NCBI GenBank assembly: GCA_030765065.1
Contig: CM060983.1
Span: 54,186,067 to 54,250,066 of the forward strand
Direction of reading: 5' to 3'
Source of the DNA: Deroplatys truncata
Lineage: Eukaryota > Arthropoda > Insecta > Mantodea > Mantidae
DNA length: 64,000 nt
Of the stretch, positions 30,671-58,579 are shown in pieces. Positions within the stretch are counted from its first letter, which is position 1. The number at the start of each line of letters is the position of its first letter. The notes below the pieces were generated by a model. That model was not told the DNA's origin, searched no databases, and was given only the letters and a program-made list of their open reading frames with translations. Made by a program: the position numbers and the translations under genes.

Positions 30671-31697
30671 TGAGAAAGTTTTTATATAGCTCCACGTATG
30701 GACGCCAATTTGAGAAAGTAGATATTGTCTTTACGTTGTTTGCACCACGCTTTGGGCGTCAATTTGAAGTAATTTGTATTGAAGGAGTTGTATTATATTT
30801 CAACTGTTGGGGAGCCGAACTTGTAATAGTTGCAAACGCACGTATAGTAAACAGTTTCCGGTAGCCTTCGCCCCAAATGTACTTTCAGGTGGCCTTTGCC
30901 TCAAGTTTAAAAAAATATTAACTTTGTAATTAAACTGTTTCTTTAAATATTTAATATTTATATTTGCCTCGGCTGCGTCAGTATTTATTTTAGAGACATG
31001 GATATATTGGCAGGGTTGTGATGCGACAAGAATGTAGGCTTACACAGATTATAATTTTACTTCACTCTTATTATTAATGCTTGATACTATTTAAAAACAC
31101 TTCACTGATATAGAGAGCTGTGAGATTCTTTTTATTAATTAATTATACTTTTTAACACGTAAAATTATTTTTCGTCCCACATGAATACATATTATATTTC
31201 TTGAGGACCCTTTTTGCGTCTGGTTAGTAACGCTGTCTGCAGGCAGCTGAACTCTAAATTTGTAAAATGTTCTCCTTTTCAGTTTCTGATTGGCTAATCC
31301 TACTCCAATAGAATACCTTCATTTAACTAAAGCTTTTTCTAGTTGTGGATTGGCTATTTTATAAACTGACACTAAAATTACATTATTGTTACTCCAAGGA
31401 TCACAAGTAGTACTGTTAAACTTTCTTACTCATTATTGACTCAAGGTTACCTCATTATTACCTCATTGTTAGCAACTTTTAACTTATTATTTTCACAGCT
31501 CCTACATTATTAAATTATGTAATAAATTCACATAACATTATTACACATGGATACAATAACATAAACATATACAATGACTGTAATATACACTTTTTATATA
31601 TTGTTACATATACATATTGCTTTAAGGCGGGCTGTTATTGAATTTACATATTATATAATTAGACTGAAATTATGTAAGTGTTAAAAATACTGCCTCA
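30671..31697 (-). mobile_element. LTR-P copy 1 (solo LTR), 4-bp target duplication ATTT
   Basis: The unit is 1,027 bp, flanked by ATTT at 30,667-30,670 and 31,698-31,701, with TG...CA ends. Orientation is set by the primer-binding-type motifs, which read on the minus strand, where the LTR starts TGAGGCAGTATTTTTAACAC. Its far end holds three such motif units (about 30,688-30,830). It contains CCAAT/ATTGG blocks and repeated ATTGGCTA motifs in the middle. It is an old LTR fossil of gypsy-like type with no internal region. Confidence 0.88.
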
Positions 31698-35291: not shown

Positions 35292-36189
35292 TGATGATGA
35301 TGTTGTATTGAAGGAGCTGTATTATATTTCAACTGTTGGGGAGCCGAACACTTGAAGTAGTTGCAACCGCACGTATGGTACCCGGTAGCCTCTGCCCCAA
35401 TTTGTTTAAAAAATATTAACTTTGTAATTTGACTGTTTCTTTAAATATTATATATTTGTGTTTGCCTCGGCTGCGTCAGTATTATTGTTAGAGACATGCA
35501 TGTCCTAGCAGGGTTGTGGTGCGACAAGAATGTAGGCTTACACAGATTATAATTTTACTTCATTTCTTTTATTAATGCTTGATACAATTTAAATAACACT
35601 TCACTGATAGAGAGAGAGAGAGAGGGGGGAGCTGTGAGACGTTTTTATTAAATACTTGCACCTTTTAATACGTAAACTATTTTTGTCTCACATGAATACG
35701 TATTATACTTTTCGAGGACGTGTCTCGCGTCCGGTTAGGAACACTGTTTGCAGGCAATTGAACTGATTTCAACCGCCTAATCTTGTAAATTTCTGTATTT
35801 CAAGTCTCGGATTGGCTATTCCTAATCCAATAGAATGCATTCTTTTAATTAAAGCTTTTTTGATTTATAAACTGTCACTTTTATTACATTATTGCTTCCA
35901 AGAATCACAAGTAACATTATTAAACTCTCAAACTCATTATTGCCTCACGGTTACCTCATTGTTAGCAACTTTTAACCTATTGTTCTCACAGCTCCTACAT
36001 TATTAAGGTAGTAATATATCCACATAACATTATTACACATGGATACGGTAATATAAACATATACAATGACTGTAATATACACTTTTTATATATTGTTAAA
36101 TACACATATTACTTTAAGGCGAGCTGTTATTGACTTTATATATTATATAATTAGACTGAAATAATTTAAGTGTTAAAAATACTGCCTCA
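35292..36189 (-). mobile_element. LTR-P copy 2 (solo LTR), inserted in DR1b
   Basis: The unit is 898 bp with TG...CA ends, flanked by ACTT (35,288-35,291) and ACAT (36,190-36,193). It aligns with copy 1 along its length but its primer-motif end is shorter, with one recognisable unit (TTCGGCTCCCCAACAG on the minus strand). An AG-rich tract lies at about 35,609-35,628. It is an old fossil. Confidence 0.86.
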
Positions 36190-36484
36190 ACATCACAAAA
36201 AATGTAAATTTCTTTAAGACACGCAATTTAGTTCAAATAACTTTTTTGTGGCCTAAGCCATTTCCGAGATATCCTATATTAAAGGTTCGAATTGTTCATT
36301 ACCTGGTCATTCTTTAAAACCCGTTCAACATTCAGTTGCTTGTCGCGATTGTATGGAAACAGCATGAATTTTTTTAGTTCCTTTAACTATATTGGTCTAT
36401 CAGCGGCCGTTCCCTTGGAACTTATTGCCTATTGGCAGTGGTGCTAACTCGTCTTCTCTTGTAATTGGGTTTCTTGTACATTTT

Positions 36485-36878: not shown

Positions 36879-38200
36879 TTTGAAGTGGACACCGCCCAGT
36901 GGGTGCCTCCAATTAATGAATGGGACCAGCCATCACTTAGTGGAATGAGATTTCCCCGAAGGTCGTTGACCACATAAGAGGCGTTGAAATAGCAGCAACA
37001 TTTGTTAAGTGCTAAGGGACCACTCGTTTATTTCTCGTGATGTCATTAAAAGGGTATGTAATTTCAGAGTCAGCATATAACGACTCGCTTTTTAAGGATC
37101 CTACAGTCGCTTTAGCCTACTGACCCCTCTTGTAACTACAAATAAATGAGCTGTGAAACCATTTCTGCAAACGTTTATCTCGGTTAGCAAGAAATATCGA
37201 AAAATAACATCTTTTAAAGAATAGTTTACACAAAAGATGTAAGTAGAGGAACGTTTATTTTATGGTGGTGTTGTATTGTATTTCGGCTGTTGGGGAGTCG
37301 AACTTGAAGTAGTTGCAACCGCACGTAAGGTAAAAAGTTTCCGGTAGCCTTCGCCCCAAATTTACTTTCCGGTGGCCTTTGCCCCAAGTTTAAAAATATT
37401 AACTTTGTAATTTGACTGTTGCTTTAAATATTATATATTTATGTTTGCCTCGTCTGCGTCTGTATAAATTTATAGAGACATGAATTTCATAACAAGGCGT
37501 GGTGAGGCTGAAGAATGTAGGCTTACAAAGTTATAATTTTTACTTCACTCCTTTTTATTAATACTTGACGCGATTAAATACCACTTCACTGATATATAGA
37601 CAGCTGTAGGATTATTTATTAATTACTTGCACTTTTTAAACACGTAAACTATTTTCATCTCACATTGAATACGTATTAAACTTCTCAAGGACGCGTCTCG
37701 CGTCCGGTTAGGAACGCTGTCTACAAGCAACTAACTTCTGAATTTGTAAATTTTGCTCCATTTCAGTTGCTGATTGGCTAATCCTACTCCAGTTGAATAC
37801 TTATATTTAACTTAAGCTTTTTCTGGTTGGTGATTGGCTATTTATAAACTGCCTCAAAAATTACATTATTGTTTCCTAGAATTACCAGCAGCATTACTAA
37901 ACTTTCTAATTCATTATTGCCTCAAGGTTACCTCATTGTTAGCAACTTTTGACCTATTGTTCTCACAGCTCCTACATTATTAAATTACGTAATACATTCA
38001 CATAACATTATTAAACATGTGCATAATATAAACATGTACAATGACTGTTACATAGGTACATTTCATATGTTATTTATACACTTATTTCTTTAAGGCCGGC
38101 TGTTATTGAAATTATATTATATAATTTGACTAAAATCATTTAACTGTTTAAAAATACGATAGTTGGTAGATAAAGTCGTATGAATGCAAAATAAGTTTGT
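36879..38200 (-). repeat. Old DR1b-related sequence split by LTR-P copy 3
   Basis: Left (about 37,060-37,262) has diverged DR1b blocks such as TTTCTGCAAACGTTTATCTC. Right (38,158-38,200) reads CGATAGTTGGTAGATAAAGT, the family's start in reverse. The first part (36,879-37,060) is not clearly assignable. Confidence 0.6.
37263..38157 (-). mobile_element. LTR-P copy 3
   Basis: About 895 bp, colinear with copies 1, 2 and 4. It has a single primer-motif unit near 37,290-37,320 and its opposite terminal bases are not recognisable. It is inserted in old DR1b sequence. Confidence 0.82.
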
Positions 38201-44439: not shown

Positions 44440-45142
44440 TGTGAACAGCATAACTCAGAAACGAACAGTCGGATAAACACAAAACTTAGTATTTAGGTTC
44501 AGTAACTTCCAGAGATGCGATATGAAGGTTTTCAAGAAAAAACCCCCAACCCAGATTACCCTTTACATGGAACATTTTTCGAAAATTTAAATTTTCTCAA
44601 AAACGGCTGTAACGATTCTGATTAAAATATTATATGTTTAAGATATTTTCATGACAAATAAAATGCATGTCTTGCATTTTCTGGGAATGTCTCCAAAAGT
44701 ATTCTTCATTGTGAACGACTTTTGCATAACTGGTAAACCATAAGAGATAGACAAAATTTTACTACACAAAAAATGTAGATCGTGTTAAAATACACAATTT
44801 ATGTCACATACATTTTTTTTGTTGAGTGAACCATTTTCGATATATTGCTTGTTATTCCCTAAAATTTTCCAATACTTACACTTTTTCTCAAATTCGTTAT
44901 TCATTTTTTTTGCCCTGGTCATACAAAGAGAATGGAATACTCCACGTAGCAACCAGCTCTTAAAATATTTGACTATCGCTTAAAGCCTGCCAATTCTCCT
45001 TGCATCTACAAGAAAATAAGCAACAAGATTAATATCTCGATATCTCGATTAAAATGAAGCATATGGGGATTAAGCGTCTGTAAAAATAGTTTGTACAAGA
45101 GTTGAAAAAATTCATGTAGTATACGTAGTAGAGAAAGTAAAA
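43547..45142 (+). repeat. DR1 copy split by a nested reverse DR1 copy
   Basis: The outer forward copy runs 43,547-44,265 (AAATCTGATGTGTTACACTC... to CCAAAAATGC) and its last ~25 bp reappear at 45,118-45,142 (AGTATACGTAGTAGAGAAAG). The reverse copy lies between. Confidence 0.9.
44266..45117 (-). repeat. Nested DR1 copy, reverse
   Basis: It runs from TTACTTTCTCTACTACGTAT to GAGTTGAAAAAATTCATGT; the outer ~20 bp of the family start are missing. A 40-bp (GT)n tract is at about 44,399-44,439. Confidence 0.92.
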
Positions 45143-45770
45143 AGTCAAGTTATATAACTAGTGATAAAGTTTTTAAACCAGCCATAAAAAACTATCCCTA
45201 TCTTGAAATTCAGAGAACATAAACCTTTCCTCATAATGTGATTCCCTTGTCGCACACGAAAAATCAAAATACTGCCTCGAGCATGCAATTAATCTGTCCC
45301 AAACTGCATGGGATAATTGCTCTGTTCAGATAATTCAGTTGTGCTGTGCATCCCCTGCTTTTGCCTGGCCTCGTATCCTAAGGGGCTACGTTATGTGCAC
45401 CAAAAGGGTTATAATAACCCTTGTCTCGTGTTTCAATTAGGTTTCGTACCATACAGAGCTTTTTTGGGGGGCCCAGAAATTGAATATGATAATGAGCAGT
45501 TCGAGTTACTCATAGGAGTAATATATCGTATAGAGGGAGGGGAAAGTATGGAATATTGCTTATAAGTTTATAATGTAAATGTCTCTTAATAAAGTTAAAC
45601 GATGCCTTTGTTGGATTTGCATCATTTAACATTTTGTTCATAATTTGGAAAATGTGGGTCCCCCAAGTATACCATCACACGCTTTTTATTCTCTCTACCA
45701 TTTACCTATAGGAATAGGATACACAACTGACGGGGATACCTCACGCACTGCGGCCTTCATAGTTCTATTG
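45143..45770. other. Unassigned DNA with an 82-codon open frame
   Basis: The plus frame 45,317-45,565 starts MLCSDNSVVLCIPCFCLASY and contains GFVPYRAFLGGPEIEYDNEQ. A stop is followed 25 bp later by AATAAAG. No family is recognised and no other copy is present. The frame-plus-polyadenylation layout is weak evidence only. Confidence 0.3.
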
Positions 45771-46783
45771 TGAAGATGAAGTATTTTATTAGCTCTACGT
45801 ATGGAAGCCAATTTGAAGAATGTAGTTGGTTGGCCCCACGTTGGGCGCCAATTTGAAGATGGTTTGTTACGTTATTTTTTACCACGCTTTGAGCGTCAAT
45901 TTGAAGAAGTTTGTATTGAAGTAGTTGCAACCGCACGTATGATAAACAGTTTCCGGTGGCCTTAGCCTCAAATGTACTTTCAGGTGGCCTTTGCCCCAAG
46001 TTTAAAAAAAGTATTAACTTTGAAATTTGACTGTTTCTTTAAATATTATATATTTATGTTTGCCTCGGCTGCGTCAGTATTATTGTTAGAGACACGTATC
46101 TCTTGGCAGGGCTGTGATGTGACAGGAATGTAGGCTTACACAGATTATAATTTTAAATGCTTGACACGTTTTAAATAACACTTCACTGATATATATAGAG
46201 AGAGAGCTTTTATTAATTAATTACACTTTTTAACACGTAAACTTATTTTTCGTCTGACACGAATACGTATTAAATCTCTCGAGGACACTTTTTGCGTCTG
46301 ATTAGGAACACTGTTTGCAGGCAACTGAACTGATTTCAACCTATTAAACTTGTAAATTTCTGTATTTCAAGTCTCTGATTGGCTATTCCTAATCCAATAG
46401 AATATCTTCTTTTAACTAAAGCTCTTCTGGTTGTTGATTGGCTATTTTATAAACTGTCACTAAAATTACATTATTGTTACTCCAATAATCAGAAGTAGTA
46501 TTGTTAAACTCTGAAACTGATTATTGCCTCAAGGTTACCTCATTGTTACCTCATTATTAGCAACGTTTAACTTATTATTCTCACAGCTCCTACATTATTA
46601 AATTACGTAATGCATTCACATAACATTATTGAACATGTTTACAATAAAGTAAGCACACGCAATGACTGTTACATACATTTTACAAATTATTACATACACA
46701 TATTGCTTCAAGACGGGCTGTTATTAAATTTACATATTATATAATTTGACTGAAATCATTTGAGTGTTAAAAATATTGCCTCA
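45771..46783 (-). mobile_element. LTR-P copy 4 (solo LTR), 4-bp target duplication ATTG
   Basis: The unit is 1,013 bp, flanked on both sides by ATTG (45,767-45,770 and 46,784-46,787), with TG...CA ends. On the minus strand it starts TGAGGCAATATTTTTAACAC. Its far end carries three primer-motif units, one of which is a perfect tRNA-Lys-type sequence. It is colinear with copies 1-3. A SINE (S2) directly follows its start. Confidence 0.9.
45833..45850 (-). promoter_or_regulatory. tRNA-Lys-type primer-binding motif inside the LTR end
   Basis: The minus strand reads TGGCGCCCAACGTGGGGC, the 18-nt sequence complementary to the 3' end of tRNA-Lys(CUU) that primes reverse transcription in several retroviruses and gypsy-type elements. 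It is preceded by CTTCA and AAT, matching an LTR end plus spacer. Unusually it lies about 60 bp inside the outer boundary defined by the target duplication. Confidence 0.85.
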
Positions 46784-46787
46784 ATTG

Positions 46788-57515: not shown

Positions 57516-58579
57516 TGTGGTGGTATACTTATAATGTTATATTTAATTTGTTGTTGAGCCCCATGTTTGGGAGCCAATTTGCGGTGGTATTACTTATAAT
57601 GTTTGTGTATTTGTGTTTACTCCACGTGGTGAAGCCATTTTGTGAAGTGATTTTTTGTTAGGTTTGTTAGCTCCATCTGGTGTTAGCAATTTGTGGCAGT
57701 ATTAGTGTTTGTTTGAAAAAATGCTACTGTGATTTTATTTAATTTTGGTTCACTGTCCTCCGGCTAGCTATTATCCTTTTGGTCGAGCACATCTCTTTAT
57801 ACAGGTTGTGTAAACGGAAAGGAGTCTTTTATCCAAAGATAAAACTGATGAAAGAATTTGTTTTACACTTTTATTGTCGAACACATTCACTATCACATTT
57901 ACATATTGATCTTGACACTCGCCAAACTGAAACTGTTATAATAACTTCATTACTCATCATTCTTAATTCACGTACTTCAACTTTTTGTGTAATTAACTTT
58001 ACAACACTTTAGATTTTTCATAACTCTGCTACGCGTATCCTGCGAATCGATAGCCGACGTGTACTGTACAAATATTTCTGCTGGACTGAAGGCGACGTGT
58101 AACGTACAAATATTTTCGTCGAACTGACGGCGACGTGTAGCGTACAAATATTTTCGGTGAACTGGCGGACTGAAGGACTTTACCTCTAACCTAGCCCTTT
58201 TTATACTCCTACACCCCGATATGCCTAAATATTATAACCGAGCTGCTATTGGCTAATAAAACGCGCCAACATTAGCGTCTATTGTTATATCCAATGAAAA
58301 TTATGAATACATATGCTCTAGGGAAAATGTTCCAGCAAATTCTAAAGAAAAACGCGCCAACATTACGTAACTTCCTCGTCTCTAATAATGATAAACAGCT
58401 CACCCCCTCGCTGCATTATTGCACGCTATTATTGTCAGTTTCAATAAGGCCGTATAAACTTACTTCTCAACAATAATTATAATCAACAAACATCTCAAAT
58501 CAATGTCACATAAAAATGCATATTCATATTATAATCATTCTTTACATTTAAATAATTTATGATACAAATTACTGCATCA
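57516..58579 (-). mobile_element. LTR-Q (solo LTR), 4-bp target duplication TATT
   Basis: The unit is 1,064 bp, flanked by TATT (57,512-57,515 and 58,580-58,583), with TG...CA ends. On the minus strand it starts TGATGCAGTAATTTGTATCA, similar to the LTR-P start TGAGGCAGTATTTTTAACAC. Its middle has three or more tandem units with CGACGTGTAACGTACAAATA near 58,055-58,160. Its far end has three primer-motif units. It is an LTR fossil related in design to LTR-P, inserted in DR1b. Confidence 0.87.
58055..58165. repeat. Tandem ~45-bp units inside LTR-Q
   Basis: CGACGTGTACTGTACAAATA, CGACGTGTAACGTACAAATA and CGACGTGTAGCGTACAAATA follow each other at 44-48 bp spacing, each with TTTC and GAACTG nearby. 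Such tandem units in LTRs can be enhancer-like, but no function is shown. Confidence 0.85.

Follow-up and report, generated by a model that had tools for sequence, protein, structure and literature searches.

It is an open question how LTRs become longer, and their border with the leader is usually treated as fixed; the LTR-P copy A on the minus strand of the window (the whole 64,000-nt stretch of DNA analyzed here) raises the question of whether that border can move. This copy (Table 1) ends in three units of CTTCA-AAT plus a primer-like motif, the middle one being an exact 18-mer that we take to be the complement of the tRNA-Lys 3′ end. On the minus strand, CTTCA starts at 45917, 45902, 45854, 45814, 45777, and 45771; the last two form the terminus, and the target duplication adjoins the last. 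The sequence-only reading had placed all three units inside the border fixed by ATTG on both sides, and both the units and the flanking ATTG were found as it described them.

Table 1. LTR copies, border units, and target duplications in the window
Feature	Position	Strand	Remarks
LTR-P copy A	45771..46783	-	1013 bp, TGAGGC...CTTCA; ATTG/ATTG borders; without leader after
Copy A unit 1, degenerate primer site TGACGCTCAAAGCGTGG	45882..45898	-	CTTCA-AAT directly before
Copy A unit 2, exact 18-mer TGGCGCCCAACGTGGGGC	45833..45850	-	CTTCA-AAT directly before
Copy A unit 3, degenerate primer site TGGCTTCCATACGTAGAGC	45792..45810	-	CTTCA-AAT before; spacer and terminal CTTCA after
Target duplication ATTG (+ strand), array-end flank of copy A	45767..45770	.	
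Target duplication ATTG (+ strand), TGAGGC-end flank of copy A	46784..46787	.	
LTR-P copy B	30671..31697	-	AAAT both sides (minus strand); design as copy A
Copy B divergent first unit	30804-30818	-	
Copy B further units	30742-30761 and 30689-30707	-	
LTR-P copy C, LTR core	35352..36190	-	then (below 35352) divergent first unit only
LTR-P copy D, LTR core, start mutated	37304..38156	-	then (below 37304) divergent first unit only
Copy of second LTR family (Q-like)	57516..58579	-	AATA both sides (minus strand); ends by eye
Q-like copy, one unit inside LTR	57558-57576	-	

Target duplications were scored across the genome (4.29 Gb searched). An array query from the window gave 1,774 candidates, and 39 non-window loci were taken from the best 40 scored places. 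The test set comprised 35 copies: the 33 of these loci in which both the LTR start and the array end were located, plus window copies A and B. Left out were L019, L022, L029, and L047 (start not found), L020 and L043 (array end not found), and window copies C and D. A duplication directly after the last unit was exact in 20 of the 35 copies and matched in at least 3 of 4 letters in 32, compared to means of 0.85 and 4.83 and maxima of 6 and 14, respectively, in 20,000 trials with permuted flanks. The end of copy A was placed by hand at its last CTTCA (without copy A, the exact count was 19 of 34), while the rule misplaced that of L011 (by eye, ATCT), a copy scored as a miss. With the border set at the end of the LTR core, a target duplication fit none of the 29 copies tested, and with the border set at inner unit joints it fit 4 of 103. 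The comparison of array ends with core ends therefore places the units within the LTR borders, and the true LTR end was not found to precede the first unit. Three extra copies met by chance, with right ends set by eye, had exact duplications at L014:2287 (AATG) and L031:528 (CAAG) and a match of 3 of 4 letters at L030:4756 (GTGT/GAGT).

LTR-P copies in the test set were 991 to 1,624 bp long (one was lengthened by an insert). As the sequence-only reading had anticipated, the units varied in number: the 20 exactly bounded copies had 2 (11 copies), 3 (5 copies), 4 (2 copies), 6 (1 copy), or 18 (1 copy), as counted by a script that omits the divergent first unit, such that a by-eye count may differ by one or so. 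These numbers lean towards the array in the window because the 39 loci are the best matches to it. The 18-unit array lies at ~1850 to 2540 of the oriented locus L031 and consists mostly of near-uniform ~39-bp repeats, with ACGA on both sides. Target duplications do not separate growth before integration from later tandem expansion, and the largely uniform L031 array may be a case of the latter.

The sequence of the units bears on what they are. Among 195 units from 73 loci (a set restricted to units starting with TG, CG, AG, or TA and excluding those with more than 5 edits), CA occupied the LTR-end place at −5 and −4 in 179, and CAAAT directly preceded the primer site in 169. The units thus lie between copies of the LTR end, also as proposed from the window alone, and because CA and CAAAT are kept before primer sites, we regard the units as complete borders. 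Successive recognized sites were spaced 18 to 69 nt apart, with a median of 28 (73 gaps in 34 arrays). The 25-mer TTCAAATTGGCGCCCAACGTGGGGC, which is the exact 18-mer with TTCAAAT, had 1,180 matches in the 4.29-Gb genome, and genome-wide, near-complete exact sites formed 218 closely spaced tandem pairs; the reversed control gave 0 in both cases. A scan of IMG/VR with a 23-mer yielded 0 matches. Within arrays, units farther from the LTR core were nearer to the 18-mer (mean within-array rho of −0.67, reached in 0 of 2,000 permutations), with mean edits of 5.5, 3.53, and 3.48 for units 1, 2, and 3 in 34 arrays, a gradient that partly reflects one shared ancestral first unit counted many times. 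A core-nearest (type 1) unit was present in all 34 arrays, which were chosen with a query containing such a unit. Exact 18-mers accounted for 3 of the 115 units in the 34 arrays.

Young elements in which both LTRs can be compared reveal where the border itself falls. Two of these, Q1 (from C1:9532384) and Q2 (C1:139647-139654 kb), have near-identical LTRs, TG...CA termini, a target duplication, and a primer site after the 5′ LTR, as is characteristic of LTR retrotransposons. Q1 has the form LTR-internal-LTR-internal-LTR, with three LTRs that are at least 99.8% alike and AGTT on both sides. Its 3′ LTR terminates in CGCTTCA; its 5′ LTRs have the same CGCTTCA at the border, followed by AAT and an exact primer site. 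Within the LTR there is one degenerate unit, which all three Q1 LTRs inherited; another is in the leader. In Q2, for which the compared LTR pieces were identical and ATGG was found on both sides, two exact sites are present, and the border CTCTCGCA precedes the first of them. From these border structures it follows that two related young elements are bordered at different units. By BLAST, Q1 and Q2 were 84 to 85% identical over a 116-column stretch of the LTR body and 67% identical over the whole border stretch; judged by these alignments, they are relatives and not parent and offspring. The Q1 open reading frame had no Pfam match above the cut-off.

The same features of an LTR retrotransposon were found for an LTR-P element, C16 (C16:305759-305764 kb, with ATAC on both sides), which is older and for which part of the 3′ LTR was read. 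Here the 5′ LTR has 1 unit versus 3 in the 3′ LTR, and the site at the 5′ border falls, in the alignment, opposite the first of the inner units in the 3′ LTR. Such unlike arrays within one element are not expected from simple alternative priming, and a second event is needed; this single case could be explained by mis-annealing during the second strand transfer or by a later change. In L048, the locus whose internal region was read, the longest open reading frame listed was 139 amino acids and had no Pfam match above the cut-off. Evenly spaced repeats, each made of a primer site and internal region, were seen in Q1 and Q2 as well as at C1:181481420/181482906, C14:27621924/27625263/27628602, and C5:23079467-23093471. 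Such spacing suggests tandem LTR-internal arrays in several places, those besides Q1 and Q2 (read in part) being judged either from the spacing only or from short stretches of sequence.

Leader sequence has also been captured within an LTR. In L043, a primer site and 165 nt of leader are caught between units, and the copy ends in a genomic repeat; its target duplication, outside the 35-copy count, matches by eye in only 3 of 4 letters. Leader and unit are joined at a TGGGGC common to both, which suggests template switching. The 165-nt leader occurs at 39 further places (the best scored of 1,470 candidates) with 88 to 91% identity. LTR-P sequence lay upstream of the leader in 15 of the 18 loci taken (not in L053, L057, or L065; L063 by eye), and in these a variable number of units is followed by the last site and then the leader. 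An exact 18-mer at or beside the leader was seen by eye in 3 of the 18 (L052 and L053, plus L061 at one step upstream); most borders seen there are therefore old. Many of the leader-side last sites in L050 to L067 carry extra letters, e.g., AGCTGCGTGG instead of AACGTGG, as a recurrent variant. For L058, its own 3′ LTR was sought and was absent from the best 40 scored places, and for L092, a leader-rich query for its own 3′ LTR returned other copies over the full query as its best 40 matches. Fifteen further loci with exact sites (L079 to L093) were hand-picked from the first part of the 25-mer match list. In 7 of these (L079, L080, L083, L084, L085, L090, and L092) the site precedes a leader, and in the other 8 it lies, by eye, inside copies ending in a CA terminus plus unrelated flank. 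The one of these 8 with an LTR start in hand, L082, has TGTT on both sides; nearly all of its LTR body is missing, with ~30 bp of LTR start followed by one exact unit.

Judging from sequence comparisons such as these, LTR and leader probably meet at a modular border, with the module that is primed in reverse transcription fixing the LTR end. Each unit would consist of a U5 end (...CTTCA), the 3-nt spacer AAT, and an 18-nt primer site, and would as a complete border supply both a place for priming reverse transcription and the CA end needed by integrase. Three steps that we infer would move such a border: alternative-unit priming, refreshment by the tRNA, and template switching. Priming at unit k would copy units 1 to k−1 into U5 of both LTRs and leave the units beyond k in the leader, such that the LTR would grow by whole units when an outer site is used and shrink when an inner one is used. 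Copying of 18 nt of the tRNA into the plus strand would refresh the used site to the exact 18-mer, and unused sites would decay. Template switching among the repeats would give rise to new units and to occasional longer leader pieces. A tentative extension, in which we place somewhat less than even confidence, is that these elements are a natural retrotransposon group with an evolved multi-start border, made of several complete tandem modules of primer site plus integrase end, by which LTR length and border are chosen anew at each reverse transcription and each array preserves, in partly legible form, the primer sites used earlier.

An unlikely alternative is that primer-site capture occurred once, long ago, and that the arrays since reflect tandem-repeat dynamics in U5, by slippage or unequal exchange, with the true border fixed outside. 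The mostly near-uniform repeats of L031 would fit such dynamics, and the unequal LTRs of C16 could likewise be a post-integration change. Yet exact 18-mers stand beside degenerate sites within arrays (copy A, L015, L034, and L070 to L072), the border position differs between Q1 and Q2, leader was captured in L043, and the sequence after the 18-mer varies widely, all of which argue against a fixed outer border and repeat turnover alone.

That last variability also bears on the mis-processing of the tRNA primer, suggested by the sequence-only reading, by which tRNA-derived sequence would be added stepwise to the LTR end; we consider this very improbable. The motifs do match the complement of the tRNA over 18 nt, and many LTR-P leaders continue with TCGAA, as that complement presumably does, yet TCGAA follows only 2 of 39 exact sites. 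After these 39 sites, some of them within one element, 23 different 5-mers occur, and the likeness therefore ends at 18 nt, as would follow from the tRNA having served as template; a modified tRNA base stops copying after the 18 nt. Mis-processing is disfavored because it would leave tRNA-derived letters without LTR-end copies between them, whereas the sites lie 18 to 69 nt apart, each with a new LTR-end copy before it. The arrays are explained more simply by priming at a different one of several complete sites, together with template switching. The other part of the earlier proposal, that the LTR grew by capturing its primer site and leader, fares better: it agrees with the captured leader of L043 and with the borders of Q1 and Q2.

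It is also barely probable that the array is kept for some other function, such as an enhancer, insulator, packaging, or tRNA capture: repeats in retrotransposon untranslated regions can be regulatory (PMC3286476, the part accessible), but distal units differ between copies and most are not exact sites. The reading of the units as ordinary leader of 5′-LTR fragments with coincidentally matching flanks, for which it can be said that in most of the 18 leader loci the LTR core is followed in series by units, a primer site, and leader, retains next to no probability and is contradicted by duplications that were exact at 20 of 35 array ends and at 0 of 29 core ends, and by the 3′ LTRs of Q1 and Q2, which themselves fix the borders.

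A modular border has partial counterparts among known systems. HIV-based vectors with two primer-binding sites, the subject of Voronin and Pathak in 2004, reportedly undergo frequent dual initiation, judging by the title; as in the present arrays, there is more than one primer site per RNA, but these vectors are engineered and not a natural array within an LTR. The Osvaldo lineage (Ty3/gypsy) of Culex has LTRs of 997 to 2,055 bp and a primer site that is always tRNA-Lys, and three of its elements have unusual conservation across the border between LTR and primer site (PMC3286476, accessible part). LTR-P is similar in its LTR of ~1 to 2 kb and its presumed tRNA-Lys primer site, which provides a lead, based on these two traits and not on a reverse transcriptase phylogeny, that it belongs to this lineage; arrays of border modules, present in LTR-P, are absent from the accessible part of the lineage's description (PMC3286476). 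In cqgypsy_1 of Culex quinquefasciatus, as far as the same part relates, 26 nt of the 5′ LTR are directly duplicated at the border between LTR and primer site, but the copies flank a tRNA dimer (a SINE-like insertion) in one peculiar element with no series of units (PMC3286476). In three Mag-lineage insect elements the 5′ UTR contains tandem repeats, which like those of LTR-P are located close to the internal region's 5′ end but are not stated in the accessible text to hold primer sites or to lie in the LTR (PMC3286476). Primer-site arrays inside LTRs were not described in the literature searched, which comprised titles and the starts of abstracts from mostly non-subscription sources. As the border seems to shift by whole units in datable copies, LTR growth and shrinkage become traceable, and exact 18-mers may continue to mark those sites that probably served for priming. 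Programs for finding LTRs may place such borders wrongly if they look for a single primer site immediately outside the LTR.

Other repeats in the window have features of their own. Target duplications were sought at the ends of LTR-P copies C and D, and none was recognizable. The unit nearest the LTR core is CGGCTCCCCAACAG in copy B and near 35333 and 37287; it resembles what we take to be the primer site of another tRNA-Lys and may be the trace of an older primer change. A dispersed repeat of ~310 bp occupies 44800 to 45117 and recurs in both orientations at 13 further places, with matches within the window of 170 to 331 columns at 78 to 87% identity.
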